Source: a virus. From it: 23,451 nucleotides of DNA. Below the pieces are notes generated by a model. That model saw nothing but the letters and a program-made list of their open reading frames with translations, was not told the DNA's origin and made no database searches. Below, piece after piece: positions 7,659-23,451 of the stretch. The position numbers and the translations under genes are program-made. The first letter of the stretch is position 1. Every line of letters starts with the position of its first letter. The stretch covers positions 1-23,451 of the IMG/VR virus record IMGVR_UViG_3300035698_001828. One strand, given 5' to 3'.

Positions 7659-10600
7659 TAGTAACTATAGCCTCCGCCGGTTGTGTTTGTGTTAAATGCT
7701 GTTGATGCACTGCTTGTTATTCCTGATGTTGTCTGTGTTGACACAGTATTAATTACTGCTCCGCTCGCTTGTAAATTTGTAGCTGTGATTTGATCAATTG
7801 TTTCAATGTCGCTTACTTTAGCAGCACTAGCAAAGACTTCATCTGGCTCACTTTTTATTTCAAACAAGCTACCAAACGATTGTGTAGTTTGGCGCGGAAC
7901 TATTAGTATACTTACCAATTTTGGAGACAGCTGATTTATAATATAGGCACTAAGTTCTTGGAAGTAAAACGTCTCTCCAAAGTCCCAATTTTCAATATCA
8001 AAAAACTTATTAATAGCTTCAATAATATCTGATTTAAGTTCATTATCGTTAATAACCATACTAGCATTTTTAACAATTTTAAATTTAACTTGTAAATCAG
8101 ATGCAGCTTTATCACCAAATAGTATTTTGTATTTTACAGGATGATAAATTATTTCATCACTGATACTTTTTATTTTATTAATTTCAATTCCATAACTTCT
8201 AAACAATTCGTCATTACTAGGCGGCTTTGGTCTAACTGATGTTGTACCAGCAATAAATTGTTTTACTTGTGTGTCATATGTTTTTGACAGTATGTAAGTA
8301 TCAATAATGTTGCTTGCACTTGGATCAATTCTATATCCACTGTCGGCGACGTGAATGTAATGAAACTTTAAATCTGCACGGCCAAAATATGCTTTATAAT
8401 CTGTATTAATTTGAGTGTTGTTTAGTGCTTTGTTAAGCTTTCTAAAAATGCCTTCATTAATTAGATAAAATATTTGTCCTTCTAAATGTGCACTATACGG
8501 TGCAATTGCAGCTTCATTCTGTACCACAATAATTTCAGCAGTTGCGTTTGCAAAATACTTAAAGTCTTCTACACCATCAGTCGTAGTGTATTTCTTTTGA
8601 AAGATAATTTTATCTGCTGTTGCAATTGCAGTATTTTCTTCACCAACAATTTGTTCAAAGATGTCAGGATCGTCTACAACTCCGTCGTCGTCTAGATCAA
8701 TAAATTGAACTTGAATCTTACGGCTGTCTAAATATCCTTCTACATCTCTATATGCATCTGTAATTGTCCAATTAAAATCTCTAGTAAATGGCGTTAGTTC
8801 ACCAGGTCGACGATTAATATTTAAAATGTCAATCTTGTCTCTGACAATTTGTCCAGTTGCTGGATCGTAAATTTTGTCAGCAGCATCAAAGAAGAATCTA
8901 ATTTCTTCTGCACTTTCCATTACATAGCGCAAATTACGATATGTAATAGTATATTTTTCACCGTTAGTTTTAAAGTAAAGCATCCAGCTTGCATCAAGAT
9001 TTTCTCCTGTAGCATCTCCTGCTTTACCTGTAGCAAATGCATTAAGAGTATTAATGTCTTCAGCTAATACAATCTTCCATTGCCTGTCGTATTGGTCGTA
9101 ACGCAGTGCAAAATCTTTGTATTCAAATGCTTGGTCAATTAATTGCGTTTTTACGTCATTAATTAATACTTTAGAAAAATTAGGTATAACCTGTTGTAAA
9201 ATTGCGCCAGTTGGAATAACATCGTTTACTGCTATAGGCGCAGTACCGTCTTCATCGATTACTGTTCCGTTGCCTTGCACAGATACTACTTTAGACCATT
9301 TGTATGTTGTTTTACCTAAGTGGTCTCCAATTGCGACGTCGGCCATTAGTGTTCCATTAGGCATAAAGTGTTGGCCGGCTGGTGCTACAAATTTTAATAG
9401 CGTGCCTGCTTCTAGCAATCTTAAACTATTAGCAGTAAATGCGCCTACTGTATATGCATTTCCGTCTACATCTTTAAATAGTCCTAATGTTTGATTAGTG
9501 CTTGTACTCGACTGCGTCCAAGTTGCATTAAGATCACTAACAATGATTTTTGGATACTTTGCAAAATAAAAGTTTTGTGTATTAACACCATCCAAAATTC
9601 CTTCAATAGTGTTGTATATTACGCCTTCGATGTCTGTTTGAGTAGCAAACGTAAATGTTTGCTTTTCAATAAATTCTTCTTTATAAATTACGCCGTCATC
9701 TGCGAATAAACTAGTGTTAGAATATTTGCCAGTGGCATCTTTTAGGTCAAAGAATCGACTAATCCCACTTGAAATTCTGTTTGAACTTTTAGTCTTAATA
9801 ATGTCTTGGCTAATTGCAAGAGGACCAATATTATAATCCTCGCCTGTGATCAAACGGTTTTGTGTGTAGTAAGTTGCAGGTGCATTTTGTTTAATTTCTG
9901 CATTTGTTTCCGACGCTGTGCCGTTATTAATAGTATAATTTAATTTAAGTCCAATTGTTAAAGTTTGTGCTGATCCGTTTCTTGATTGATAAGGTATTTC
10001 AATACTAACTGTGCTAACTGCACTCGGAGTAATTACGCTTCTTAAATTGTTACTAGTTCTGTAGTATGTTCTAAAATCTCCAGCCGGCAAATTACCAAAT
10101 ACACCATCACTAAAGTTTAAATTAATTCTATCACCAATTCTAGTAGTTACAGCAAATACATCTCTAGTTTGATTAAACAAACTGTTATAAATTACGTTAT
10201 TACCTTCAGTTGAATCAATTTTAGTCCATTGATTATTGTCAAATCCTGCGCTGTTAACTGCAAATAACCAAACGTCACTATCGTTTATATTTTCTGCATC
10301 AATTTGTACTGCTTGATTAGGAGTAGGATTGGCTACACTAAAGTTTCCTGTTTCAAGCTTGCCTTGACGGAAATGCATAAAGAATCCAGTGTTGTTTGAG
10401 CCTGCTCCTTGGCCATCATCACGGAATAAAAATGCGGGACTGTTGCCAGGCAATGGCGCTTCTTCTAAAATAGTGTCTGTTGTAATATCTGTACTTACAA
10501 TTTCAAAACGTGTGCTTACGCCTTCAATGCGTTTAGTAAACGGGTAGATTGCTTGTCCAGTGTTTGTAGCGTTTAGACGATATTTTTGTGTTTGTACATC

Positions 10601-11140
10601 TGCGATTAGTGCAGATTTTAATGGATTGCCTATTGAGTTAGATAGCGGCAATGCCGAATTCATTATTTTAATAAACTGTTCAAAGAAATTTGAATTAGTT
10701 TGATCATTCCATTTGACTGTGATTCCGGCCATGTTTAAGCCGTTTGAGTCTAGTATGTTTTCTGTAGTCTTAATAGTATCAAACTTTAGTAAACCATTAG
10801 CTGCTTGATTTCTACGTGGATTGTAAGACAGCATACGTGCTAGACGTAGTACACTTTCTCTGCGTTCTGCTGTTTCAAGGAAGTTTTCACGTGCGTTTAA
10901 ATCAATACGGAATGATAGGTTTTGTCCGAGGAAAGCAATCATATCAATCAGCGCAAGATATTCGCTTGATTCAATATAGTCGTTAAAATCTTCAGGATAG
11001 TTTTGACGCAGATAGTTAATCATTGTGCGTCTTAGATTGTCGAAATCGTAGCTCTGGAAATCAGCGTTTCTAAAACTTTGGTATATTCTTTTCCAGTCTT
11101 CAGCTACTAATAACCTTGACTGTCTATCATTTGCAGACAT
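7658..11140 (-). CDS. 6: Baseplate wedge subunit gp6, enlarged
   Basis: gp6 forms the continuous inner ring of the T4-type baseplate and changes conformation when the sheath contracts. The first roughly 110 residues are a typical gp6/baseplate-J N-terminus: YQSFRNADFQSYDFDNLRRT, then EYLALIDMIAFLGQNLSFRI and a Glu/Arg-rich helix. The last 250 residues also look like the family C-terminal region (FGETFYFQELSAYIINQLSP). At 1160 residues it is much longer than T4 gp6 (660), with a long beta-rich middle. Residues 815-826 form a perfect EF-hand-type loop, DLDDDGVVDDPD, a likely Ca site. The tail is Ser/Thr-rich and ends in GGGYSY. I chose the ATG at 11140 because AAGGA lies 7 bases upstream; it would be only 1 base from the ATG at 11146. 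gp25 lies upstream, and the next gene overlaps as TAATG. Confidence 0.9.
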   Translation of the reverse strand: MSANDRQSRLLVAEDWKRIYQSFRNADFQSYDFDNLRRTMINYLRQNYPEDFNDYIESSEYLALIDMIAFLGQNLSFRIDLNARENFLETAERRESVLRLARMLSYNPRRNQAANGLLKFDTIKTTENILDSNGLNMAGITVKWNDQTNSNFFEQFIKIMNSALPLSNSIGNPLKSALIADVQTQKYRLNATNTGQAIYPFTKRIEGVSTRFEIVSTDITTDTILEEAPLPGNSPAFLFRDDGQGAGSNNTGFFMHFRQGKLETGNFSVANPTPNQAVQIDAENINDSDVWLFAVNSAGFDNNQWTKIDSTEGNNVIYNSLFNQTRDVFAVTTRIGDRINLNFSDGVFGNLPAGDFRTYYRTSNNLRSVITPSAVSTVSIEIPYQSRNGSAQTLTIGLKLNYTINNGTASETNAEIKQNAPATYYTQNRLITGEDYNIGPLAISQDIIKTKSSNRISSGISRFFDLKDATGKYSNTSLFADDGVIYKEEFIEKQTFTFATQTDIEGVIYNTIEGILDGVNTQNFYFAKYPKIIVSDLNATWTQSSTSTNQTLGLFKDVDGNAYTVGAFTANSLRLLEAGTLLKFVAPAGQHFMPNGTLMADVAIGDHLGKTTYKWSKVVSVQGNGTVIDEDGTAPIAVNDVIPTGAILQQVIPNFSKVLINDVKTQLIDQAFEYKDFALRYDQYDRQWKIVLAEDINTLNAFATGKAGDATGENLDASWMLYFKTNGEKYTITYRNLRYVMESAEEIRFFFDAADKIYDPATGQIVRDKIDILNINRRPGELTPFTRDFNWTITDAYRDVEGYLDSRKIQVQFIDLDDDGVVDDPDIFEQIVGEENTAIATADKIIFQKKYTTTDGVEDFKYFANATAEIIVVQNEAAIAPYSAHLEGQIFYLINEGIFRKLNKALNNTQINTDYKAYFGRADLKFHYIHVADSGYRIDPSASNIIDTYILSKTYDTQVKQFIAGTTSVRPKPPSNDELFRSYGIEINKIKSISDEIIYHPVKYKILFGDKAASDLQVKFKIVKNASMVINDNELKSDIIEAINKFFDIENWDFGETFYFQELSAYIINQLSPKLVSILIVPRQTTQSFGSLFEIKSEPDEVFASAAKVSDIETIDQITATNLQASGAVINTVSTQTTSGITSSASTAFNTNTTGGGYSY
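7671..7675 (-). promoter_or_regulatory. Ribosome binding site of the giant gp7-position gene
   Basis: GGAGG on the minus strand, 12 bases before the ATG at 7658 and inside the last codons of gp6. The spacing is long, but the motif is a perfect Shine-Dalgarno core. With the 1-base TAATG overlap it supports this start. Confidence 0.6.
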
Positions 11141-11147
11141 GAGCATT

Positions 11148-11152
11148 TCCTT
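11148..11152 (-). promoter_or_regulatory. Ribosome binding site that decides the gp6 start
   Basis: AAGGA on the minus strand. It sits 1 base from a first ATG (11146) and 7 bases from a second in-frame ATG (11140). Normal spacing favours the second, giving a protein starting MSANDRQS. Confidence 0.6.
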
Positions 11153-11164
11153 GTTTACTATTAA

Positions 11165-11171
11165 TATTTAG
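11165..11171 (-). promoter_or_regulatory. Late-promoter-like motif CTAAATA, proximal to gp6
   Basis: CTAAATA on the minus strand in the 65-base gap between gp25 and the gp6 start. It matches the last six bases of the T4 late element TATAAATA. Initiation about 6 bases downstream would leave a very short leader before the gp6 ribosome binding site. The same heptamer occurs upstream of the gp48-like gene. Confidence 0.5.
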
Positions 11172-11197
11172 CTGAAAAGAAAATGTACGTATTTAAT

Positions 11198-11204
11198 TAT
11201 TTAG
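11198..11204 (-). promoter_or_regulatory. Late-promoter-like motif CTAAATA, distal to gp6
   Basis: A second CTAAATA on the minus strand, 33 bases upstream of the first and just after the gp25 stop codon. It would give a leader of about 50 bases. Two copies in one short gap suggest a tandem late promoter for gp6 and the giant downstream gene. Confidence 0.5.
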
Positions 11205-11205
11205 G

Positions 11206-11640
11206 TTAAAGAAGACCGTTTTCTTTGTCAAATTTGAAGCGTAATTGATCTGTTATTCCGAAAGGCAACACTGTTATAGTACAATCAATTTGTATACCTT
11301 GTTCATAAGTATCTATTACAATATCTTCTGCACGTATTCTAGGATCATAGTTAATAATACGAGTAACATCATCAATTATTGCTTCTTGTACCTCAACTGT
11401 AAATGGCTCGTAAAGTATATCCCAGATAATAGTACCAAACGTAGGATCGCTTAATTTTTCAGTTTGGCGTATATGAAAATGATTAATCAAGTCTTGTTTG
11501 ATTAATTCAAAATCGTAAAGACTAAAACTTTTAGCGTCTGCTACTGTGCTAAAGCCCCTATACTTTCTGCCAGACGTAGCTACTTGCGTAGGTTGACTCA
11601 CAGTTACTCGTTTGTAAAGATTTTTTTCTAATTGGCTCAT
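11206..11640 (-). CDS. 25: Baseplate wedge subunit gp25
   Basis: Small wedge protein of the GPW/gp25 family, conserved from T4 phages to type VI secretion (TssE), which helps form the core that initiates the sheath. Its 144 residues are close to T4 gp25 (132). The family core is visible: an N-terminal YDFELIKQDLINHFHIR region, then DPTFGTIIWDILYEPFT, then a helix VQEAIIDDVTRIINYDPRI, and a final beta part ending RFKFDKENGLL. The T4/TssE wedge motif (EPR) appears to be YEPF here. It lies 24 bases downstream of the spike gene and is followed by a gap with two late-promoter-like motifs. AAGGG lies 11 bases before the ATG. No oddities in length or frame. Confidence 0.93.
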   Translation of the reverse strand: MSQLEKNLYKRVTVSQPTQVATSGRKYRGFSTVADAKSFSLYDFELIKQDLINHFHIRQTEKLSDPTFGTIIWDILYEPFTVEVQEAIIDDVTRIINYDPRIRAEDIVIDTYEQGIQIDCTITVLPFGITDQLRFKFDKENGLL

Positions 11641-11664
11641 GTGTATATTTACCCTTATTATATG

Positions 11665-14142
11665 TTACTCAGGAGTAGCATGCGGTGATACAGTAGGTGT
11701 TGCAGCACTATTATCAGTCGGATCGACAGTCGGTGGATTGGCATTAGCTGCATCAATTTCTTGTTGTAAACTTCTAAGTGCATCTGCTTCTTCGTTATGA
11801 AATCTGTTTACCACACTATTCCTAACTGCCTGAGTACTACTGCGGAAATATCTTCCGCCATTTTCTGCTCGGCGCTCTGCATATACTGCCCTAATTAATG
11901 CAGCATCTGTAGGAGTTGTTGAAGTTATTTCAGTTGGAGGATAACCCAACCCGTCTAGTGCTCTACGGAATACATTCCTTGCGCCGCCTGGGCCATGTTG
12001 AATTGAGGTTGAAAATACTGCTTGTTGTACAGTTCTAGCTCGTGTTGTAGAATCAAGCCCAGTTGCGTTTTTAATTAATCTATTTCCAGGAGTAAAGTAA
12101 GATATTGCTGTATATTCACTTTGTGCATTGCCGCCTGCTGGAGTTCCCATTACTTGAGCCCAAGCTGTTTTATATGCATCAGTGCCCGCTCTTCCTCCTG
12201 CTGCGCCGCCTGCTGCTTGCATTTGCGAGTCTAAATTAGGATGTGCTTGTGCAAGCCATGCATGAAATTCATTCAATGCTCCGGTATTAGCAGCAAGCTG
12301 GTATTTTCCATAACTCCATCCGCCTGTACTATCCCATCCAATAGTTCCAGGATCGCCTTTAGATTCATATTTTTCACTTAGTGCACCAATATTAAAATCA
12401 AATGTATGAGTACTATTATAATTTCCCGGTGGAACAGATGCCTGACCATTGCCGCTTACTCGACTTTGCACTCCGGTGCTTACGTTGCCGCCGCTTCCTG
12501 TTACGTATGCACTGTTTGTGCGACCTTGTAAATTTTTATCAAACGTATCCGGAGTAAGCACGCGGTCTGCTGACGGTAACCCGCCAGGCTGTTCTCTATC
12601 TGTTTGTATCTTCTTAAACGCCATTGGGTCCATATTTTCGTGATGTGGCCAAGGCTCGTGTTGTGGTGCTCTTGTAATTATAGTATCGTATCCGTTTATA
12701 ATTCCGCCAGGTTTTACACGCGGTAACGTGTGTGTACTTAGTGGCTGCACTGCACTTGCTGCATTTGCAGTAGGAGCTGTTGGTCCATTCATATGCACAT
12801 AGGTTGCAGTTTCTCTATGTTCTTTAGCACTATTAATAAACGTATTGCCGGCCGCGGTAAGTCTATTGTCTTGACCACTTTTAATATGTAAACTTTTTGC
12901 AGTATCAATATATTGAGATTGGTTTACTTTTATGTGTTGATTTTGTCCTACAGTAATTTTACTGTCTTTGCCAACATATAAATTAAAATCTGTTTTAGAT
13001 TCTATCTGCACTCTTCCAGAAGATGCACCCTTTGCTCTGCCTGCGGCTTTGATATTAACATTTCTGCCTGCTTCCATGTTTATGTCACGTTCAGCAGTAA
13101 TGTTTAGATCATTTTCAGTCATAATACTAACACTGTCTTGTGCATGAATATCAATTTTGCCATCGCTGGTCATTTCAATCCATGTAGATCCTCGGGCATT
13201 ACCAATGTAGATTAAATCTTCACTATTGTGCATTAATATTTGATGCCCGGTCCTAGTTCTAAAACGCATTAATTCGTTTTGTGGAATAGTTCTGTCGCCG
13301 CCGGCTTCATTGTTGCCTTTGTTTTTGTAAATAGGCGGGCCATCTTCTGCATGCGTTGCACGCACAAATCTTTCGTCGCCGTCATCCATTACAAATGCAC
13401 TACCGCCTAATCTGTTAGACGGAACATTTACTTTATTACCTACTGTTCCGATTTCTACTGTTGGATGTCCATCACGGCGATCTTTAGGACCAGGTGTACT
13501 TATGCCAAATACTGCACTAGGCATTTCGCGGCGTGAACTAGTCGTAGTTGTACCGCGAACTTCGTCATTTAACAATCCTTGTATTTCTAAAGATTCTGAG
13601 AAATCCTTGTTGTAAGGTTTAGCAAACAATGTAGGATCGACCCGCGACCCGCTTTCAATTGATTTATTGTATTCACCTACTGGAAGTTTTCTGCCTTTTA
13701 ACGGTGGCGGCGTAATTCCAGTTGTGTTTTCTGTAGATGCTCTTCCATCAGGCACCATAAAATTCATATAGTCTGCAGGTATACAGCCAATCCAATACCC
13801 AAAGTTTGCATTTCCTTCTGCAAAAATTACAAGTACTTTGGTACCTACATCAGGAGGTACCATCCACATGCCGTATGACTTTTGTGTATGTTCGTAGCCG
13901 TCGTTTGCAGTAAGTGCAGCATTTGGTGTTACTCCGTAAAATGGACTTAAATATCGAACGTTTAACAACTCTCCGCTGCGTTCTGGCGTGCCGCCGGCAC
14001 TTGTATATTTTAATAATTCAACAACTAACCCGCCCATATATCGTGTATCGAGGTTGTTAACAACAACAGCTTCATACGGTCCAGAGTCTTTAAATCCTGT
14101 TGTTTGGGTGTTGGTAGTTCTTGTGTAATTTCCGTTTGCCAT
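11665..14142 (-). CDS. 5: gp5-like baseplate spike with C-terminal lysozyme-like domain
   Basis: Central spike of the tail that punctures the envelope and is expected to digest peptidoglycan. The 825 residues show an OB-fold domain at about 25-130 (YMGGLVVELLKYTSAGG, then PPDVGTKVLVIFAEGN); a region ending near the RTGHQILMH strand at about 294; a repetitive beta-helix at about 300-450 (SVSIMTENDLNITAERDINM and similar), like gp5/VgrG needles; a conserved-looking HEPWPHHEN motif near 495; a Gly/Ser-rich linker; and a lysozyme- or chitosanase-like domain at about 580-790. That domain has GALSEKYESKGDPG (E590 and E593 as candidate catalytic acids) and GWDSTGGWSYGKYQL (D604). In T4 gp5 (575 residues) the lysozyme lies between the OB fold and the helix, so the domain order differs. 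Lies 3 bases after its upstream neighbour. Spike role sure, enzyme fold less so. Confidence 0.88.
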   Translation of the reverse strand: MANGNYTRTTNTQTTGFKDSGPYEAVVVNNLDTRYMGGLVVELLKYTSAGGTPERSGELLNVRYLSPFYGVTPNAALTANDGYEHTQKSYGMWMVPPDVGTKVLVIFAEGNANFGYWIGCIPADYMNFMVPDGRASTENTTGITPPPLKGRKLPVGEYNKSIESGSRVDPTLFAKPYNKDFSESLEIQGLLNDEVRGTTTTSSRREMPSAVFGISTPGPKDRRDGHPTVEIGTVGNKVNVPSNRLGGSAFVMDDGDERFVRATHAEDGPPIYKNKGNNEAGGDRTIPQNELMRFRTRTGHQILMHNSEDLIYIGNARGSTWIEMTSDGKIDIHAQDSVSIMTENDLNITAERDINMEAGRNVNIKAAGRAKGASSGRVQIESKTDFNLYVGKDSKITVGQNQHIKVNQSQYIDTAKSLHIKSGQDNRLTAAGNTFINSAKEHRETATYVHMNGPTAPTANAASAVQPLSTHTLPRVKPGGIINGYDTIITRAPQHEPWPHHENMDPMAFKKIQTDREQPGGLPSADRVLTPDTFDKNLQGRTNSAYVTGSGGNVSTGVQSRVSGNGQASVPPGNYNSTHTFDFNIGALSEKYESKGDPGTIGWDSTGGWSYGKYQLAANTGALNEFHAWLAQAHPNLDSQMQAAGGAAGGRAGTDAYKTAWAQVMGTPAGGNAQSEYTAISYFTPGNRLIKNATGLDSTTRARTVQQAVFSTSIQHGPGGARNVFRRALDGLGYPPTEITSTTPTDAALIRAVYAERRAENGGRYFRSSTQAVRNSVVNRFHNEEADALRSLQQEIDAANANPPTVDPTDNSAATPTVSPHATPE

Positions 14143-14145
14143 ATA

Positions 14146-15483
14146 TTAGCCTGCGCCTCCACTTAGTGCTGCTGCTTCTTTTCGTTGTCGTAATCTACTG
14201 GGTCCGCCGGTAGTTGTGCCAGCTGGAATAACTGTGTCGTTTACCGGTGTATTTGATACTCTTGGAGTAGAATTTGGAACAGATGTATTACCTGCTACAT
14301 TCATACTTGCGCCTCCACCGTTAGGCGTAAACACTTTTTTACCACTATTAAAGTCATATCTATCAAACCCGCCCTGCAACGGCTCGTATATATATACATT
14401 TGCACTGCTATTAGTAGGTGTTGTTGACTGTCCTGATGTAGGAGTGGAAGGTTGTTGAGTTACTGTAGTAGGTGCTGTTGCAGTTGCGGCGGCGGCATCA
14501 GCGCGGCGCTGAGCAACTTCGGCTGCGCCATTACCTCTACCGCCGCCAACTGCTGCCGACGGTGATGATGTTTGCACAGGAGAAGTATTTTGTTGATTAC
14601 GACCTCTTGGGTCATTTGCATCTGGATTTGGTATTACTGATGCAGGAGCAGCGGCGGCGGCCCTAGCTTGCCTCATAATTGCATCATCGTAAGGAACACT
14701 TGCAGGGGGTGTTGCTCCGCTGCCGCCCGCAGTAGTAACTGGTGGGTTATTAGGTAAACATGGATCAGTACCTGTTTGGGCACCTGTTGCTAATGCTGCT
14801 GCTGCTGGTACTCTAACTGTTGGGCCTGCTCCGCCAAATGCATCTAATGGTCCTGCTGCACCAACTGTTGGTCCTGCGCCGCCAAATGCATCTAATCCTA
14901 CTTCTGCAGGTACAGTTTCACTTTCTGTTACTACTCCAGCAGCACCTACTTTAGCAGTTGTAGTAGTTACTGTAGTATTTCCTGTTGTTCTGCTAGTAGT
15001 AGCTTCTGACTGTGTTTCTGGTCTACTGTCATCTCGTGCAGGATCAGGAACATATACTCGAAGTCCCTGATAAGGTGATAACCGTATGGCGCCATCGGGC
15101 ATTTGAGTAAACGCATTTGCGGAACTGCCCCATCTACTGCCTTGATCAGTTCGCAATTCGTCGTAATAATCAAGCAATGGGAGTATGTCTACTGTATTAT
15201 TAGAATTTCCATTGCCAAAGCTTACATATTTTACTACCCAATAATTTTTATTGTTAGGATGGAGTACATCTTCGCCTTCATTGTCAATTACTATAACTAA
15301 TCCAGATTCACCTTGTCGCAGAAAAATTTGTTCTCCAAATTCATTTAAATCGTTGACATTTTGAAAACAAAGTTGCCCGAGACTATTCCTCCAGCCCGCT
15401 TGTAAATTAACTTCAACTGCATTTTCTTGGTCTAATTTTCCTACTGCTTCTTCTGGTAAACCGCTGTCATCATCATCTGCCAT
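14146..15483 (-). CDS. Thr/Ser/Pro/Ala/Gly-rich protein of the hub-spike cluster, function unknown
   Basis: I do not recognise the family. Of 445 residues, about 15-145 look like an ordered domain (LQAGWRNSLGQLCFQNVNDL, then NYWVVKYVSFGN, ending near YQGLRVYVPDP). The rest is low complexity: Thr/Ser runs, poly-Ala stretches and Gly/Pro-rich linkers, with an imperfect tandem repeat around 196-223 (LDAFGGAGPTV twice). A short ordered segment, NVYIYEPLQGGFDRYDFNSG, interrupts it near 365-385. There is no signal peptide or membrane helix. It sits 4 bases after the hub gene and 3 before the gp5-like spike, so a virion role linking or decorating hub and spike is a reasonable inference. The tandem repeat and low-complexity tail suggest rapid length change. 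Could also be a spike chaperone. Confidence 0.65.
   Translation of the reverse strand: MADDDDSGLPEEAVGKLDQENAVEVNLQAGWRNSLGQLCFQNVNDLNEFGEQIFLRQGESGLVIVIDNEGEDVLHPNNKNYWVVKYVSFGNGNSNNTVDILPLLDYYDELRTDQGSRWGSSANAFTQMPDGAIRLSPYQGLRVYVPDPARDDSRPETQSEATTSRTTGNTTVTTTTAKVGAAGVVTESETVPAEVGLDAFGGAGPTVGAAGPLDAFGGAGPTVRVPAAAALATGAQTGTDPCLPNNPPVTTAGGSGATPPASVPYDDAIMRQARAAAAAPASVIPNPDANDPRGRNQQNTSPVQTSSPSAAVGGGRGNGAAEVAQRRADAAAATATAPTTVTQQPSTPTSGQSTTPTNSSANVYIYEPLQGGFDRYDFNSGKKVFTPNGGGASMNVAGNTSVPNSTPRVSNTPVNDTVIPAGTTTGGPSRLRQRKEAAALSGGAG
14816..14896 (-). repeat. Two 33-base direct repeats, 48-base period
   Basis: Copies at 14816-14848 and 14864-14896 match at 31 of 33 positions and stay in frame, giving two LDAFGGAGPTV units in the 445-residue protein. 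The near identity at DNA level points to a recent in-frame duplication. Confidence 0.85.
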
Positions 15484-15487
15484 TATC

Positions 15488-18448
15488 TTATCCTAATAAA
15501 CTTCTAACTCTTGCTTTTGCTGCGTCTGTTGCAGCAGAAACTCCTTGATTACCAGCAGTATTTACAGCACTACTAACTCGAGATACAGCACTGCTGGCTT
15601 GTGATGACAAATCATTTATTCCAGCCGCAGTTGCTATTCTTGGAATAACTTTAGTTAAGTCTGGAACATTTGCTATTCCAAAGTCTACACCTTTTACTGC
15701 TTGAGAAAATTGGGAGGCGGCACTAGCAAGTTGTTCTTCAACATTAATAAATGGTGCTGCTAATTGTGCTGCTACATCTTGAGGCACTGCTGGCATTAAT
15801 TTTCTAACATCGTCTTGAGCAGGCGATGGCATACAGTCTGTACTTGGTTGGCCGCTTTGTCCTACAGTTCCATCAGATTGGGTAGTCGTTTTAGCAATTG
15901 CTGCACCATTATTAACTTGTAACAAATTACTATTTCCTGTAGTTGCTGCATCGTCTTGTCCTCGGCGCCTGATCATTTTAAGTGTTTGAGTAAACTTACC
16001 ACCACTTAAAATATTATTAACTGCCCATACTTGAAATATTCCACTAAATCCAGGTACAACCTGTGGCATTTCCATAGTTGCTCCTTTGATCTGATAATCA
16101 AAAGGAGTTCTAAAATTAACTATACATATTACCGGGCCTTGCGTATACTCCATAGTGCCGTCTGTCGATAGTCCAGGGCGGCCGCTGTTAGGTGCAGCAT
16201 AATTGCCAGTTTGTTGTGGCAAGAAGAATGGATCTCCCATTATTTCCATTTCAGCAGTTACCATATCCACATTCATATTTGTAATTCTATCGTGAAACTG
16301 TTCAGCAATTTGACGACGGACGTCGTTGCTGAGTGTACCCGGTGATTCAGCAACTCTAGTTTGCAATCCTACTGATGGCGTGGCTTCGTCTGCGGTTTGC
16401 AAATCTCCAGGCAGGCGTGGTGTAACTCCAGAATCGCCGTTGGTCTGAGTAGACGCAGTTGTACCGCTATCTACATTTGAAGGCCCTGCTGACATTCCGA
16501 AGTCTGAATTTGCTGTCATTAAAAATGCATTATTAAAATTAATATCAAAGTTTAATACATCTTCATTTTTTCCAGTATAGATATAGTTGTATTCTTTTAT
16601 TGCAGAGTCTCTTAGTCCTTGACCATTAGCTGCACGGGCACCCGGAGCCATTGTTACTGCTTCGTCAACTTCATAAGGCACAACGCTATACACATACACT
16701 TTTGGCTTGCGGCCCATTTGTGCTTCTGTTACCGGACTGTCATCTATAAACACCTGTGTGTCAATTCTAAACCATTTGTTCAATCCACTTTTTGCGCCTT
16801 CGGTTGCACGTTCAGCAGCATATCTAGATTGCATTACCATGCGTTCAATAATACTAGTAATTTGTTGCCCTTGACTAAACTGAAAATCTCTTGACACTGT
16901 TGCAGGTTGCGCTGCAACAGAAGTAGTATCAACTAATCCTGTCTCTGTATTAACTACTGCACCTGCTTCTGCTTCACTTGAATTGCCAGGTGCATTAGTA
17001 TCTTCATTAAGTGGACTAAGTCCAATTTCGTTCATTAAATTAGTGTTTTCAGCAAACGATTTTAATATTCCGTATGTTTCTGTAGATTGCTGTATAGTTA
17101 CAATAGTTGGATTAAACGAAGAACGAAGTCTTGGATTGTTTGCTCCAGCGCCAGTGCGCTGGGCTTCTTGTTCTTCCGGTGAAGTAGTAAATGCACTGTC
17201 GTCCACTGTTCCTGTTTTAAGAGCATCAACTAATGAAGTTGGATTTTTTGGAAAACATATTACATATCTATCAAATTTTGTAAGTGCTCCTGCTTTTTCT
17301 AAATTTTCTATTTGGCCATTAATTGCAGATGTTAGCGAACTATCATTAGTTTCAAGGACTTGGTGAAGAATCGTTCCGTTAGTCCTTATTTGTGTATTAA
17401 TTTTGTTAATATTATCTGCTAGTCCTGATTCGCTCATTGGAACTGCCTTAACTGCGTATTTACTACCCTGGCCACTTACATTAAAATCCATATTAACAAA
17501 TTTTATAGGTATAAAAATAGGACGTTGAAGAAAGTTAGCATCAGTAGTTCCGTCTAAATTCCAACCATTAAAGTCAATTCTTAAACAAAACGGAACGTCG
17601 GAATAACTGCTAAATCCGGCATCAGCTGCTGCTCCAATAATTGCTTGGATAAAGTTTCCCATACTATATGGTTCAGTTACTGTAAATGACAAAGACGTTC
17701 CGAGAGTAACTCGAGTGTTAGGATTAGGAGCAACAACTGCATCCATTTCAAAGTCATCTATATAATATTCTGCATGTTCGCTTTTTCCAGCGCCGGTCTC
17801 GTCAAAAACTTGATATCGCTTGTCTAGATTACCACCACTAGATTGTATAATATAATTTGTAAATCCGCCGCTGCTTCTGTAACTTTCTGGGTTGTTATAT
17901 TCTGATGCACTAAGTACTCCTAGTGTGATTGAATAATTAAACCCGTTATGGTCTCTTAAAGGATTAGGTATTCTACTAGCAGAAGTATCGTCGCCAGCAT
18001 AGGGAAATCTATTTCCTCTATCAGCAAATTCGGTATATGCACTTCTTTCTGATAATTCTCTATATTGAGATAATGTCAGTGCATATTCTTCACCCGTTAA
18101 TCCTGCAAGGTCTGCTACTCCTCTTTCTATTAGTTTTAATGGGTTATTAACTAATCCTGTTAATTCTTCTGCGTTTCCAATTAAGCTACCTAACTTGTTT
18201 TGTATTCCGCTGAGCAGAGAATCTGCATTGCCGCCTAACAGTCCGCCAGCTAGTGCGCCGATTGCTGCGCCCCGGCCACCATTTAACAATCCGCCGATAG
18301 CTGCACCAGCAAATGCTGAATTTATTTGTTGAGAACTCGCTCCTGTGGCTGTACTAATATCCCTACTTACAGTATTAACTGTAGTTTTTACTGTGTTAAC
18401 TACTGACGTTAAGTTGCTTTTAAGAGAGGCGCTTAGATTAAATGCCAT
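15488..18448 (-). CDS. Large baseplate hub protein, probable gp27 counterpart
   Basis: 986 residues, starting 1 base after the gp53-like gene and ending 4 bases before the next. Position between the tail-tube/wedge genes and the spike, and its beta-rich character, suggest the hub that holds the spike (gp27 in T4, about 390 residues); this is inferred, since similarity to gp27 is not obvious by eye. N-terminus: Ser/Thr/Val-rich helix, then a glycine zipper at 46-73 (FAGAAIGGLL to AGGLLGG). Beta-rich segments follow at about 155-345, with PIFIPIKFVNMDFNVSGQGS near 310-325. Another structured part near 765-831 ends in GGKFTQTLKMIRRRGQ. The stretches around 430-520 and 660-720 are Ser/Thr/Gly-rich linkers. 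The C-terminal 90 residues are Ala/Ser-rich and helical, mirroring the N-terminus. Structural role likely, exact identity uncertain. Confidence 0.65.
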   Translation of the reverse strand: MAFNLSASLKSNLTSVVNTVKTTVNTVSRDISTATGASSQQINSAFAGAAIGGLLNGGRGAAIGALAGGLLGGNADSLLSGIQNKLGSLIGNAEELTGLVNNPLKLIERGVADLAGLTGEEYALTLSQYRELSERSAYTEFADRGNRFPYAGDDTSASRIPNPLRDHNGFNYSITLGVLSASEYNNPESYRSSGGFTNYIIQSSGGNLDKRYQVFDETGAGKSEHAEYYIDDFEMDAVVAPNPNTRVTLGTSLSFTVTEPYSMGNFIQAIIGAAADAGFSSYSDVPFCLRIDFNGWNLDGTTDANFLQRPIFIPIKFVNMDFNVSGQGSKYAVKAVPMSESGLADNINKINTQIRTNGTILHQVLETNDSSLTSAINGQIENLEKAGALTKFDRYVICFPKNPTSLVDALKTGTVDDSAFTTSPEEQEAQRTGAGANNPRLRSSFNPTIVTIQQSTETYGILKSFAENTNLMNEIGLSPLNEDTNAPGNSSEAEAGAVVNTETGLVDTTSVAAQPATVSRDFQFSQGQQITSIIERMVMQSRYAAERATEGAKSGLNKWFRIDTQVFIDDSPVTEAQMGRKPKVYVYSVVPYEVDEAVTMAPGARAANGQGLRDSAIKEYNYIYTGKNEDVLNFDINFNNAFLMTANSDFGMSAGPSNVDSGTTASTQTNGDSGVTPRLPGDLQTADEATPSVGLQTRVAESPGTLSNDVRRQIAEQFHDRITNMNVDMVTAEMEIMGDPFFLPQQTGNYAAPNSGRPGLSTDGTMEYTQGPVICIVNFRTPFDYQIKGATMEMPQVVPGFSGIFQVWAVNNILSGGKFTQTLKMIRRRGQDDAATTGNSNLLQVNNGAAIAKTTTQSDGTVGQSGQPSTDCMPSPAQDDVRKLMPAVPQDVAAQLAAPFINVEEQLASAASQFSQAVKGVDFGIANVPDLTKVIPRIATAAGINDLSSQASSAVSRVSSAVNTAGNQGVSAATDAAKARVRSLLG

Positions 18449-18449
18449 A

Positions 18450-18749
18450 TTAGAATCCTAGTGTATTTCTTAGTGCCGATGGGTCAGGAAGATATATTTT
18501 TGTTCCTGCAACAAAATCAAAAACAGGATCCTTTAAAATATCTAAATTACGCTGCGCAAACACCCACCATAATTCTTTTCTGCCATAGGTAATATGCGCA
18601 AGCAGGTCAGGTCGATATGTATATTCTGATGTTATTTCAAATAAAATATCTTCTCGATTTATAGGAACAGGACGAGGAGATAAAATATCTAAATATCCGT
18701 TTTTATTAATAGCTGTTCTTGCATATTGGCTTAAACTAGTGTTTTTCAT
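18450..18749 (-). CDS. 53: gp53-like baseplate wedge protein, short form
   Basis: gp53 joins neighbouring wedges around the hub in T4-type baseplates. The 99-residue product has the signature region YRPDLLAHITYGRKELWWVF followed by AQRNLDILKDPVFDFVAG and TKIYLPDP, a LysM-like pattern found in gp53 and small tail proteins. T4 gp53 is 196 residues, so this is about half length and has little beyond the LysM-like core. The ATG overlaps the stop of the upstream gene (TAATG), and the hub gene follows after one base. The frame is intact, so shortness looks like a genuine compact form rather than decay. Confidence 0.75.
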   Translation of the reverse strand: MKNTSLSQYARTAINKNGYLDILSPRPVPINREDILFEITSEYTYRPDLLAHITYGRKELWWVFAQRNLDILKDPVFDFVAGTKIYLPDPSALRNTLGF

Positions 18750-19600
18750 TATACAAATCCTTCCGGTCCATTAATATGTCCGCCGCCTACATATTGATTT
18801 AAACTAAATCCTGATTGCGAACGTCTTGCATATTGCGGCTGTAGTGTAACTGTAATTGAACTTTGCGTAGGCACATAGTTAACTTGTCCGTTAATTGTAC
18901 ATTCTATATAATCTACATCTACTGGTAAATCTGTTGTAAAGTTTGTAATTACTACTGGTATATTATTTAATACATGCTTACCGTATCCATTTAGTCTACA
19001 TACCACTGGGGGGTTGCCCAACGGAGTACTATTACCATAAAACATTTTTGTTGCGCTTCTTAAAAAATGCAAGCAGGCAATCCAATACTTTGCATCATTT
19101 GAATTTTCTTGATAAAATTCACCAGTAAGTGTAATTGCATCAACTTGACTATTTTCATATGCCTGATACGGAAAATTTGTGTGTGTTGGTTGTATTGCAC
19201 TGTAATTTGCACTATGACTTAAAAGCACTGTAGGGTTAAATGGAAATATCATTCTATTTCCCGTATTAAACGCACTGCTTTTGCTGTTTTCTCTTAGTGG
19301 TGCAAGTATATCACCTTCATTTAATAAAACGTCAGGTACACTAATACTTACTCGCCAGTCGCTTGCTTCCGAAACACTGTTGCTAGAAGCAATAACGGCT
19401 CTAGAAATTGTTCTATTGTTAATTGACGAACCAAAGCCGCCGGTTTGATTAATAAAATTAGCTGCTAATTTTCCTAATGGTCCGAGACTGCCAAGCTTTT
19501 GATTAATAGTTTCGCCAATTGCTCCTTTGACGGCACTTTTTGCATCATTTACAATACTACTTACAAAGTTGCTTGCATCAAAATTAATTTTAAATGGCAT
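18749..19600 (-). CDS. gp48/gp54-like baseplate-tail tube junction protein
   Basis: First gene of the baseplate operon. The protein has 283 residues, close to T4 gp54 (320) and gp48 (364), which cap the hub and start tail-tube assembly. The N-terminal 55 residues are an amphipathic Val/Ala/Ser/Lys helix region followed by Gly-rich turns (INQTGGFGSS). The rest is a tube-like beta fold: DWRVSISVPDVLLNEGDI, FPFNPTVLLSHSANYS, then HFLRSATKMFYGN and PPVVCRLNGYGKHVLNNIPV. An insoluble-looking or membrane segment is absent. GGAGAG lies about 10 bases before the ATG. Whether it matches gp48 or gp54 I cannot decide; only one such gene is seen here, and the other may lie elsewhere. It follows a CTAAATA late motif. 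Confidence 0.65.
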   Translation of the reverse strand: MPFKINFDASNFVSSIVNDAKSAVKGAIGETINQKLGSLGPLGKLAANFINQTGGFGSSINNRTISRAVIASSNSVSEASDWRVSISVPDVLLNEGDILAPLRENSKSSAFNTGNRMIFPFNPTVLLSHSANYSAIQPTHTNFPYQAYENSQVDAITLTGEFYQENSNDAKYWIACLHFLRSATKMFYGNSTPLGNPPVVCRLNGYGKHVLNNIPVVITNFTTDLPVDVDYIECTINGQVNYVPTQSSITVTLQPQYARRSQSGFSLNQYVGGGHINGPEGFV

Positions 19601-19623
19601 TTTTATTTTCTCTCCTGTACTAC

Positions 19624-19630
19624 TATTTAG
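19624..19630 (-). promoter_or_regulatory. Late-promoter-like motif CTAAATA for the baseplate operon
   Basis: CTAAATA on the minus strand, 24 bases before the ATG at 19600, with AGGAG between them. It is the same heptamer as upstream of gp6 and matches the T4 late element except at one aligned base. It directly abuts the -35 box of the oppositely directed gp55 promoter. Confidence 0.6.
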
Positions 19631-19659
19631 TTGACAAAATTAAGTATGTGTATTATAAT
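19631..19659 (+). promoter_or_regulatory. Consensus sigma-70 promoter of gp55
   Basis: TTGACA at 19631-19636 and TATAAT at 19654-19659 with a 17-base spacer: perfect consensus in both boxes and spacing. Initiation near 19666 gives a leader of about 20 bases with AGGAG at 19671-19675. It suits early expression by the unmodified host polymerase. Confidence 0.85.
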
Positions 19660-19685
19660 AGTTATAACACAGGAGAAGTCTATAC

Positions 19686-20531
19686 ATGAGACCTAAAAAT
19701 TATCTTAACAATAAAGATATACTAAAAGAAATACACAAATCAAAAAACCAGTTTAATAGTTATACAGCACCCGAATACGGTGACTATGACATTATTTTGC
19801 CTAGCGTAGATAAAATTAATCGATTAACTGTAGCAGAAGCAAAACGTAATAAAGCAAAGAAGATGTCATCTGCTGAATACGAACGCCGTAAAGGACTTGG
19901 TGAGAAGGTTAAACAAGCAGAGTGCGAAACACTTGCATCTGAAATTACAAAAGAAGAACTAATCTTCCGTGTAATGACGTTTGATCATATTCCAGAAGAG
20001 CCGGGGCGTAAAAAGAACCCAAAGACTGTTGCTGACACACGAGTTAAGCTACCGTTTCCGCCGTTTGTACACTACAAGTACAACGATGACGGTGAAATTG
20101 TTCTAGTTGGTAAAAGTCACTGGGTAGGTGGCATGGACAACGGACACTTTTCAAAAGATCACGGTGTTGCAACTAAAAATCTTGCTATGATGTGGCTAAA
20201 ACTTGTTGACCGTTATGCAACTCGTGGCAATGTTCGTGGATATACCTACAACGACGAGATGAAGGGTCAAGCAATCCTGCAACTTTCTCAAATCGGCCTA
20301 CAGTTTGATGAATCTAAGTCAGATAACCCCTTTGCATACTACACTGCCGCAGTTACCAACAGTTTTGTACGTGTGATCAACATAGAAAAGCGCAATCAAA
20401 ACATCCGAGACGATATTCTTGAAATGAACGACTTGAATCCTAGCTTTACTAGACAAAATCAAGGCGAATGGGAAGCTGCTGTCAAGCGAAATGAGGAAGC
20501 AGAATTTACTCCGTTTACAAAACCCAAATAA
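19686..20531 (+). CDS. 55: Late transcription sigma factor gp55, long form
   Basis: gp55 replaces the host sigma factor on RNA polymerase and recognises the late -10 element. The 281 residues start like T4 gp55 (NYLNNKDILKEIHKSK) and carry the sigma-like core at about 160-266: NLAMMWLKLVDRYATR, YTYNDEMKGQAILQLSQIGL, NPFAYYTAAVTNSFVRVINI and EKRNQNIRDDILEMN. Between them lies an insertion of about 110 residues, rich in Lys/Arg/Glu early and containing LPFPPFVHYKYNDD and GKSHWVGGMDNGHF. T4 gp55 is 185 residues. The C-terminus (EEAEFTPFTKPK) lacks an obvious copy of the T4 clamp-binding tail. It has its own consensus sigma-70 promoter and lies divergent to the baseplate operon that it would activate. 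AGGAG is 10 bases before the ATG. Confidence 0.9.
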   Translation: MRPKNYLNNKDILKEIHKSKNQFNSYTAPEYGDYDIILPSVDKINRLTVAEAKRNKAKKMSSAEYERRKGLGEKVKQAECETLASEITKEELIFRVMTFDHIPEEPGRKKNPKTVADTRVKLPFPPFVHYKYNDDGEIVLVGKSHWVGGMDNGHFSKDHGVATKNLAMMWLKLVDRYATRGNVRGYTYNDEMKGQAILQLSQIGLQFDESKSDNPFAYYTAAVTNSFVRVINIEKRNQNIRDDILEMNDLNPSFTRQNQGEWEAAVKRNEEAEFTPFTKPK

Positions 20532-20535
20532 TTGG

Positions 20536-20564
20536 TTGACAACTGTATAAAATTACTATATACT
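20536..20564 (+). promoter_or_regulatory. Sigma-70 promoter of gp47-gp46
   Basis: TTGACA at 20536-20541, a 17-base spacer, and TATACT at 20559-20564: eleven of twelve consensus positions. It begins four bases after the gp55 stop codon. Initiation near 20571 leaves a leader of about 20 bases containing GGAG (20579-20582). It lets gp47 and gp46 be expressed early even without read-through from gp55. Confidence 0.8.
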
Positions 20565-20590
20565 TTAACAATAAGTATGGAGAATTAAAT

Positions 20591-21607
20591 TTGTTTAAAA
20601 AAGCTGCGGTGTTTACGGACATCCATTTTGGCCTAAAAGGCAATAGTCGTGTTCACAACGATGATTGTGAAAGATTTATTGATTGGTACATTCAAACTGC
20701 AAAAGATAACGGTTGTGAGACCGGAATCTTCTGTGGAGACTGGCATCACAACAGAAATAGTCTAAATCTAACCACAATGGATGCTACTATTCGTAGTATG
20801 GAGAAGCTAGGTGCTGCATTTGAGAAGTTCTACTTCTTTGATGGCAATCACGACTTGTATTACAAAGACAAACGTGATGTAAACTCAACTGCATTTGCTA
20901 AACACATTCCAGGCATTACATTTGTAGACGAAATTCTTATAGAAGACGACGTTGCACTTGTTCCGTGGCTTGTAGGAGACGAATGGAAGCAGATGAGTGA
21001 CATTAAAACAAAGTATTTGTTTGGTCACTTTGAGCTTCCTAGCTTTTATATGAATGCACTTGTTAAGATGCCCGACCACGGTGATCTAAAGTCTAAACAT
21101 TTTAAGCATCAAGACTACGTTTTTAGTGGTCACTTCCATAAAAGACAAAAACAAGGCGCTATTCATTACATCGGCAATGCATTTCCGCATAACTATGCAG
21201 ATGTAGGTGATGATGATCGCGGTATGATGATACTTGATAAGGAAAATAACAAGGAGCCAGAGTATATCAACTGGTCAGATTGTCCCAAGTACCGTACTAC
21301 TACACTTAGTTACTTAATTGACAATGCAGAAACATTTATTAAGCCAAATATGTACCTCCGTGTAACACTTGACCTTCCTGTAAGTTACGAAGAAGCAAGT
21401 TTTGTTAAAGAAACATTTATGGGACAGTATGAATGTCGTGAGATTACACTTATTCCGCAAAAACACCTAGAAGAAATGTCAACTGAGCTAGACATAGCAC
21501 AGTTTGAAAGTGTTGATCAAATTGTTAGCAACGAAATTGCAGAACTAGACACTAACAACTATAACAAAAGTATGTTACTACAGATTTACAACGGATTAGA
21601 ACAATAA
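20591..21607 (+). CDS. 47: Recombination nuclease subunit gp47 (Mre11-like)
   Basis: Metal-dependent nuclease that works with gp46 to resect DNA ends for recombination-dependent replication and host DNA breakdown. 338 residues, T4 gp47 size (339). Calcineurin-type phosphoesterase motifs are all present: D10-I-H12, G49-D50, G85-N-H-D88, G145-H146, and G180-H181-F-H183. The C-terminal third is the capping region, ending in helical Glu/Asn-rich sequence. The start is a TTG at 20591 with GGAG 8 bases upstream; there is no closer ATG, and the motif set begins only nine residues in, so TTG is the natural start. It has a sigma-70 promoter and is followed by gp46 after one base, suggesting coupled translation. 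Confidence 0.95.
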   Translation: MFKKAAVFTDIHFGLKGNSRVHNDDCERFIDWYIQTAKDNGCETGIFCGDWHHNRNSLNLTTMDATIRSMEKLGAAFEKFYFFDGNHDLYYKDKRDVNSTAFAKHIPGITFVDEILIEDDVALVPWLVGDEWKQMSDIKTKYLFGHFELPSFYMNALVKMPDHGDLKSKHFKHQDYVFSGHFHKRQKQGAIHYIGNAFPHNYADVGDDDRGMMILDKENNKEPEYINWSDCPKYRTTTLSYLIDNAETFIKPNMYLRVTLDLPVSYEEASFVKETFMGQYECREITLIPQKHLEEMSTELDIAQFESVDQIVSNEIAELDTNNYNKSMLLQIYNGLEQ

Positions 21608-21608
21608 T

Positions 21609-23384
21609 ATGATCAAAGTTAAGGACATGACGGTTAAAAACTTCATGAGTGTGGGCAATCAAACTCAAGCAGTAGATTTTAATCATGAACAGCTAACACT
21701 TGTACTAGGTGAGAACTTAGATCAAGGCGGTGACGATAGTGGATCACGTAACGGCACTGGAAAAACGACCATTATCAACGCACTGTCGTATGCTTTGTAT
21801 GGTACTGCACTAACAAACATCAAACGCAATAATCTAATTAACAAAACTAACTCAAAAGGCATGCTGGTTACGCTACATTTTGAAAAAGATGGCAATGATT
21901 ATAGGATCGAGCGCGGTCGTAGCCCAAATATCTTTAAATTCTACATCAACAATCAAGAAAGCCTTGTGGACGAGTCTCAAGGCGACAGTAGACAAACTCA
22001 AGATGATGTAAACACACTACTGGGCATGAGTCACGACATGTTTAAACACATTGTTGCACTCAATACCTACACAGAGCCGTTTTTGAGTATGCGTGTCAAT
22101 GACCAACGTGCAATTATTGAGCAATTGCTAGGCATTACTATCCTTAGTGAAAAAGCCGATGCACTTAAAGAGCAAATTCGTGCAACTAAAGATGCAATCA
22201 CTGAAGAAACATTAAAAATTAATGCAATGCAAAGTGCTAACGAAAAAATTGAAGTAAGTATTGATAGCTTAAAACGCACTCAACGTGCATGGCTTGCTAA
22301 AAAGGAGCATGACTGTGCTAAATTACAGCAAGGTATATCTCAGCTCGAACAGTTAGATATTGAAGCTGAATTAGCAGCACACGAGAAACTAGCAAACTGG
22401 ACTGAACATAACAATTCTATCCTTGCTCTTAAAAAAGAACTAAGCACACTGGAGCCGGCTCTCCAACGTGCAGACAAAGCTGTTGAAAAATTAACCAAAG
22501 AGATTACAGAACTCGATGATGCTACTTGTTACACTTGTGGACAAGAACTTCATGCAGATAAAAAAGCAGAAATTGCAGAGCGTAAAAACAAAGAACTACT
22601 CGATGCACAGTCATATGCACAAGAAATAAATGCAAAGTGTTCTGAAGTAATTATGGCACTAGAGGAAATTGGTGACATTAACGGCAAGCCTAGCACATTC
22701 TATGACACTGCTAAAGAAGCATACGAGCATCGTAGTAACGTAGATAATTTAAAGCAAGCACTAGAGTCAAAGAAGGTAGAGGACGATCCTTATGCTCGAC
22801 AAATTGACAGTCTAAACGAAACTGCTATTCAAAAGGTAGACTGGGGAGTTGTAAACGAACTTACCAGTTACAAAGAGCACCAAGAGTTCTTGCTCAAGTT
22901 GTTAACAAACAAAGATAGCTTTATTCGCAAGAAGATTATTGATCAAAACCTAGCATACCTAAACAATAGACTTACATACTATCTCGATAAAATTGGATTG
23001 CCTCATCAAGTTGTGTTCCAAAATGATTTGAACGTTGAGATTACACAACTAGGACAAGATTTAGACTTTGATAACTTGAGTCGAGGTGAACGCAACAGAC
23101 TTATCTTAGGATTAAGCTTTGCATTCCGTGATGTTTGGGAAAGTTTGTATCAAAATATTAACTTGTTGTTTATTGATGAGCTAATTGACTCAGGTATGGA
23201 CACTGCCGGCGTTGAAAACAGTCTAAGCATTCTTAAAAAGATGGCACGAGAAAGAGAAAAGAATATCTATCTTATCTCACACAAAGACGAACTAATAGGC
23301 AGAGTTAATCACGTGCTGCGTGTTGTAAAAGAAAATGGCTTCACCTCATACGAACCAGATTTAGATATTACTAGTATCGTATAA
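21609..23384 (+). CDS. 46: Recombination nuclease subunit gp46 (Rad50-like ATPase)
   Basis: SMC/Rad50-type ATPase that pairs with gp47 to tether and resect DNA ends. 591 residues; T4 gp46 is about 560. Visible: a P-loop at 45-54 (GSRNGTGKTT) preceded by an insertion, GENLDQGGDDS, that T4 gp46 lacks; a Q-loop region near 150; coiled coils at about 185-300 and 315-400; a zinc hook C307-Y-T-C310 at the hairpin; the ABC signature LSRGE at 490-494; Walker B LLFIDE at 519-524; and the H-loop His558 in LISHKDEL. All catalytic parts are intact. There is no good Shine-Dalgarno motif close to the ATG, so translation is likely coupled to gp47, one base away. A late promoter overlaps the stop codon. Confidence 0.95.
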   Translation: MIKVKDMTVKNFMSVGNQTQAVDFNHEQLTLVLGENLDQGGDDSGSRNGTGKTTIINALSYALYGTALTNIKRNNLINKTNSKGMLVTLHFEKDGNDYRIERGRSPNIFKFYINNQESLVDESQGDSRQTQDDVNTLLGMSHDMFKHIVALNTYTEPFLSMRVNDQRAIIEQLLGITILSEKADALKEQIRATKDAITEETLKINAMQSANEKIEVSIDSLKRTQRAWLAKKEHDCAKLQQGISQLEQLDIEAELAAHEKLANWTEHNNSILALKKELSTLEPALQRADKAVEKLTKEITELDDATCYTCGQELHADKKAEIAERKNKELLDAQSYAQEINAKCSEVIMALEEIGDINGKPSTFYDTAKEAYEHRSNVDNLKQALESKKVEDDPYARQIDSLNETAIQKVDWGVVNELTSYKEHQEFLLKLLTNKDSFIRKKIIDQNLAYLNNRLTYYLDKIGLPHQVVFQNDLNVEITQLGQDLDFDNLSRGERNRLILGLSFAFRDVWESLYQNINLLFIDELIDSGMDTAGVENSLSILKKMAREREKNIYLISHKDELIGRVNHVLRVVKENGFTSYEPDLDITSIV

Positions 23385-23387
23385 ATA
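23380..23387 (+). promoter_or_regulatory. Late promoter TATAAATA overlapping the gp46 stop
   Basis: Exact match to the T4 late -10 element. The TAA stop of gp46 (23382-23384) lies inside it. Initiation about 6 bases downstream gives a short leader with AAAGGAGA before the ATG at 23413. It separates the early nuclease genes from a late gene. Confidence 0.75.
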
Positions 23388-23412
23388 CTAAGTAAATTCT
23401 AAAGGAGATATA

Positions 23413-23451
23413 ATGTTTACGCAAAATAATTATTTAAAAGAATATTATGAT
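23413..23451 (+). CDS. Start of an unidentified gene under a late promoter, 3' end outside window
   Basis: Thirteen codons are visible from the ATG: MFTQNNYLKEYYD. GGAG lies 7 bases before the ATG (from AAAGGAGAT), and a perfect TATAAATA sits about 25 bases upstream, so expression late in infection is expected. The peptide is too short to identify. It shares direction with gp46 but has a separate promoter. Late timing suggests a structural, assembly or lysis product, but nothing in the visible codons confirms this. Confidence 0.65.
   Translation, partial: MFTQNNYLKEYYD

Follow-up and report, generated by a model that had tools for sequence, protein, structure and literature searches.

An Early Promoter of a gp55-Like Late Sigma Factor Gene Interlocked with an Opposite-Facing Late Promoter in Large T4-Related Phages

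Gene Context

The stretch of DNA analyzed here (the window) is a 23,451-bp IMG/VR fragment carrying a leftward and a rightward group of genes that diverge from a short gap. The leftward cluster (minus strand) begins with the gene of a gp48-like virion structural protein (18749..19600), whose homologue in PA5oct (33%, E 7e-35) is annotated as found in virions by mass spectrometry, continues with a gp53-like baseplate wedge protein (18450..18749), and also includes gp5, gp25, and gp6. The assignment of these genes to a baseplate operon, previously made from the letters alone, is thus borne out by homology to virion and baseplate genes. Among the other minus-strand products, the gp5-like baseplate protein (11665-14142) has a C-terminal part that matches a type VI secretion VgrG3-like domain, and a giant ORF (3-7658), truncated by the end of the window at over 2552 amino acids, has CBM_5_12 matches (carbohydrate binding) and perhaps encodes an adhesion protein such as a tail fibre. 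To the right run gp55, gp47, and gp46. The gp47-like gene has a separate sigma-70 promoter (TTGACA-17-TATACT, 20536..20564, plus strand), and with a loose pattern 55 of 56 relatives (see below) gave a similar site close to the end of gp55.

The first rightward gene (19686..20531, plus strand) codes for a 281 amino acid gp55-like late sigma factor, with an insert of about 100 amino acids relative to T4 gp55. It matches the late sigma PHROG 12791 (E 8.7e-72) and, at the level of PDB profiles, T4 gp55 (structure 7d7c_F, E 4.5e-9), which was the sole solid PDB match by sequence and the best Foldseek match of the structure model (mean pLDDT 85, TM-score on target 0.53). Homology to T4 gp55 covers the -10-binding region. 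In the model, a region of about 100 residues, for which no fold match was found, lies between an N-terminal NYLNNKD motif common to T4 and the -10-binding domain. PHROG, PDB sequence match, and fold therefore all agree with the earlier proposal that the right gene encodes a late sigma. The PF02916 sliding clamp was not found in 20 records, including the complete Atu_ph07, PA5oct, and Phosso, in a search that recovered the T4 control (E 2.9e-35) and that a very divergent clamp could escape.

Layout of the 85-bp Gap

Only 85 bp separate the ATG of the gp48-like gene (19600, leftward) from that of gp55 (19686, rightward). Facing gp55 there is a sigma-70 promoter formed by TTGACA (19631-19636), a 17-nt spacer, and TATAAT (19654-19659), with a predicted start near 19666 and conserved in relatives. 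With 12 of 12 consensus positions at 17 nt, within the 16–18 nt spacing of such promoters, it was the sole 12/12 match in a scan of positions 10000-23451 (~13 kb) and the sole exact sigma-70 site in the whole window. Facing the gp48-like gene, on the minus strand, CTAAATA (19624-19630) has the position of a late -10 element (-12 to -6) with a predicted start near 19618, its assignment to a late class coming from relatives. Not a single base lies between the two elements, the junction falling at 19630/19631. The sequence-only reading had described both elements and their contact, and in all three points it proved exact. The host-read promoter of the late sigma gene is interlocked base by base with the opposite-facing promoter that this sigma would be expected to read. 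The two starts, predicted from T4-type spacing, are 48 bp apart. Both genes have short leaders with an AGGAG-type ribosome-binding site, AGGAGAG at 19610..19616 (minus strand) for the gp48-like gene and AGGAG at 19671..19675 (plus strand) for gp55.

Conservation of the Fused Promoters

A protein search with gp55 retrieved 80 viral loci, and 56 distinct upstream regions were compared. Twelve consecutive columns, TATTTAGTTGAC, are identical in all 56 of these protein-selected loci, while in the same relatives none of the 37 fourfold-degenerate columns of gp55 is invariant. The arrangement is thus kept in related phages, a check that the sequence-only reading had proposed. Among 25 long records, TATTTAGTTGACA is single-copy and located at gp55 in 23, including the 490-kb Agrobacterium phage Atu_ph07, and was not found in the other two, PA5oct and Phosso. 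In these 25 records there are dozens of further exact sigma-70 sites. On this comparative evidence, chance abutment of the two elements can be excluded. When all viral contigs were searched for the fused string, 94 matches lay beside gp55 and 48 elsewhere; the latter are mostly in unrelated contexts and plausibly due to chance, and a few of them precede other divergent genes. In three other phage contigs (L130, L197, and L222), TATTTAGTTGACA lies between divergent genes, before a gene that is not gp55.

In 13 of the 56 relatives (L027, L034, L038, L048, L059, L076, and seven more) a rightward late motif, TATAATAAATA, lies over the early -10 of gp55, compared to 4.6 expected in shuffled sequence for any rightward late motif in that stretch, which suggests that in some relatives gp55 may drive its own gene. 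Five of the 56 (L009, L010, L011, L022, and L023) have, about 40 nt downstream of the fused promoter, a further sigma-70 promoter that does not overlap it. The window has neither of these features.

A T4-Type Late Promoter Class

Within the window CTAAATA is not enriched (7 found vs. 7.6 expected). At this chance frequency the abutment alone proves little, and the reading of CTAAATA as a late element depends on relatives. A count of TATAAATA in the window likewise gave no enrichment, and counts from the window alone were discarded as evidence for a late motif. We have therefore relied on eight long relatives together with the window, in which ORFs were called and all 7-mers counted in the 60 nt before 634 starts with no motif preset. 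ATAAATA was the top upstream 7-mer (77 seen vs. 3.7 expected), followed in the ranking by TAAATAC, ribosome-site words, and CTAAATA (25 seen vs. 3.7 expected), all of them strand-biased. The resulting logo, G-(A/C)TAAATA-C-W-W-T, is near the T4 form TATAAATA (-13 to -6) and the CTAAATA at -12 of Aeh1, and in the relatives the TAAATA core shows the genome-wide enrichment upstream of late and structural genes typical of T4-type late promoters. From this enrichment of (A/C)TAAATA and the closeness of the logo to the T4 and Aeh1 forms, we conclude that a T4-type late promoter class is present in this phage group, with CTAAATA as its minority form. The earlier proposal that the left motif is a late promoter consequently gains a real late class in relatives, although the window by itself lends it no enrichment.

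A Putative Upstream Box in the Early Spacer

In relatives, the early spacer shows more conservation than sigma-70 requires, with the leftward reading TAC(G/A)YA(S)TTAAT, and contains a leftward box of consensus TACGYASTTAAT. In the window the putative box is ACACATACTTAAT (19639..19651, minus strand, -33 to -21 of the late promoter). The gp6-like gene offers a comparison with no overlapping early promoter, its CTAAATA (late -10) being located at 11165..11171 and its own upstream box at 11180..11192 (both minus strand), at the same offset as at gp48. In the gp6 promoters of about 45 relatives, also with no early promoter on top, ATACGCACTTWW starts at an equal distance ahead of the late -10, 20 nt when counted from the T. 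A matrix trained on gp6 sites alone scored 8.2 on the window box at the predicted offset and gave on the gp48 sites, which are mutually related, a mean of +8.2 at that offset, with all the other offsets tried staying below -5. For a random intergenic position the probability of scoring at least 8 is 6.5e-4, or perhaps 0.01 allowing for the offsets tried, the pattern having been noticed before testing. We regard this match at the gp48 promoters as moderate; the late promoter apparently reaches across the early spacer, a point missed by the sequence-only reading.

The box is not a general late element, since 114 other late promoters lack it and genome-wide it shows no enrichment in intergenic sequence relative to column-shuffled matrices. 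Late promoters in T4 have no upstream (-35) element (PMC2988020); no shared box was seen in the 114 other late promoters, and a putative one was seen in the gp6 and gp48 promoters. One alternative is that the conserved block, TATTTAGTTGACAAAATTA...GTA, is an operator through which a phage regulator acts, negatively or positively, on one of the genes or on both, which would account for the conservation of spacer positions needless for any sigma-70 promoter and for the similar box before gp6. However, the conservation of the box is also what one would expect of a promoter element with constant spacing to TAAATA, a gene for such a regulator was not identified, and the genome-wide scan gives the box no enrichment, so we consider an operator improbable.

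In L085-L092 (G001), L100-L104 (G008), and L327-L331 (G006), boxes like TACGTAGTTAAC/TGCGTATATAA flank a late -10 on both sides, and this late -10 precedes a gene for a 95 amino acid protein (MSRPKP...). Similar boxes also occur between divergent genes in G003, G004, G005, and G013.

The Distant Clade and Atu_ph07

The PA5oct-related loci (L273-L319) keep the divergent pair without the fusion. There, a leftward GATAAATA behind the gp48-like start is followed, after about 20–45 bp, by a rightward TTGAC(A/T)-17-TATA(C/A)T. Since the layout is kept without fusion, the fused form probably arose later than the divergent early/late pair. One of these loci, L295, with its early promoter about 40 bp distant, keeps GTAGTTAATTT before GATAAATA, and GTAGTTAATTTGTCAACTAAATA is present in Atu_ph07 with no -10 at 16–18 nt from its TTGACA; in both cases the persistence of the box supports its belonging to the late promoter. 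In the distant clade no late motif was found directly before gp6, and the gp55 of Atu_ph07, used as a query for its own relatives, returned only itself.

These loci bear on two other explanations of the fused layout. The first is that TATTTAG, the complement of the leftward motif, is an upstream extension of the early -35 region and there is no late promoter at all. TATTTAG is indeed always fused to TTGAC in the fused clade. Yet it accompanies no other exact sigma-70 site of the same genomes. In L273-L319 the leftward motif is separate from the early promoter, and it is also found before gp6 and numerous further genes. In Atu_ph07, finally, the string is retained even though a -10 at sigma-70 spacing is missing. 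All of this makes the explanation very unlikely. As a general extension of early -35 regions TATTTAG was rejected, with one copy per genome.

The second is economical packing, in which both promoters are real and independent and overlap only because compact genomes are selected for, without consequence for regulation, gp55 replacing the host sigma anyway. The distant clade shows that fusion is not needed for an early/late program, as its promoters are kept apart, and the rightward late motifs in 13 of the 56 relatives suggest that shut-off of gp55 is not essential. On the other hand, all 56 distinct loci show the two elements in one and the same register, and their late promoter, instead of shifting by a few bases, has retained the less common C at -12 and an A at -13 (G-A is preferred elsewhere). 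Moreover, judging from known footprints, the 48 bp between the starts are too few for two polymerases without a collision, so that both starts could not be occupied simultaneously. Packing alone appears to us a rather doubtful explanation, though less so than an operator.

A Putative Early-to-Late Switch

We favor, as reasonably probable, a mechanism in which two overlapping divergent promoters would serve early sigma synthesis and then late baseplate transcription, with mutual exclusion and shut-off of the sigma promoter. Host RNA polymerase with the housekeeping sigma would read the rightward TTGACA-17-TATAAT early and produce gp55; the gp55-carrying polymerase would then read the leftward late promoter (box 19651-19639, CTAAATA 19630-19624) into the baseplate genes. 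With the early -35 placed between the late box and the late -10, and that box in turn placed within the early spacer, polymerase on either promoter would exclude the other, so late firing would also cut further gp55 synthesis, making the sigma self-limiting. This shut-off would be limited to gp55, since gp47 and gp46 would keep their own sigma-70 promoter at 20536. Recognition by gp55, timing, exclusion, and feedback are what we infer here.

The sequence-only reading had put forward such a switch from rightward early to leftward late transcription. Its outline is supported by the gp55 homology, the baseplate genes, the late class, and the conservation, but a strict change of direction is not general, given the 13 of 56 relatives with a rightward late motif at gp55 and the 5 of 56 with a second early promoter. 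In these relatives gp55 could continue to be made, and in the former the rightward motif would counteract the shut-off. A more elaborate variant, which we put forward only tentatively, would have the late promoters of the baseplate operons be bipartite, with the box replacing T4 clamp activation and being recognized by the additional gp55 domain or a different phage factor. The early gp55 promoter would then be built into the gap, and the sigma would switch off its own gene.

Comparison with Known Phages

Several features are shared with T4, namely the gp55 homologue, the TAAATA core at -11 to -6, a preferred C at -5, and late structural genes downstream. However, late transcription in T4 uses the gp45 clamp and gp33 (PMC2988020), whereas no PF02916 clamp was detected in 20 relatives, the gp55 described here has an insert, and the gp6 and gp48 promoters show a putative upstream box. 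In Aeromonas phage Aeh1 the main late motif is CTAAATA starting at -12 (PMC1524935), as at the gp48 site, although in the group of the window it is a minority form, yet invariant at this site. For jumbo phage CBB, which has a related late sigma family, the parts of the report available to us describe an RpoD-like promoter before the gp55 gene and ATAAATA before structural genes, with neither gp33 nor gp45 found, and contain no description of an overlapping divergent early/late pair (PMC5259590).

In layout, the nearest case is the A2c-A2b-A3 region of phi29, whose promoters all use one sigma and are switched by the regulators p4 and p6, bound between them to repress early and activate late transcription (PMC3100819). 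There too, opposed early and late promoters share one short region, their use shifts in the course of infection, and an early product drives the change; here, by contrast, the late promoter would be read by a phage sigma and the overlap itself would cause the exclusion. By this analogy phi29 may be the closest functional analogue, while motif and sigma are T4-type, and the layout with its possible box would represent a variant. In the literature, of which our coverage is incomplete, we found neither a description of the overlap nor transcriptome data from a close relative.

The fused layout, as predicted from sequence, is found in uncultured large T4-related phages and is unchanged in dozens of relatives. 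If the proposed mechanism is true, it would be a very compact early-to-late switch in which the promoter of a sigma gene and the target promoter of that sigma are never usable together. It would give a concrete site for studying how late transcription starts and is limited in large T4-related phages seemingly without the T4 clamp and gp33, and it suggests that, unlike in T4, an upstream element may be possible in gp55-type promoters.

The T4 late consensus itself appears in exact form on the plus strand of the window, at 23380-23387 (TATAAATA followed by CTAAG), between the gp46 gene and the next rightward ORF at about 23413; therefore, late genes may begin on this strand too.
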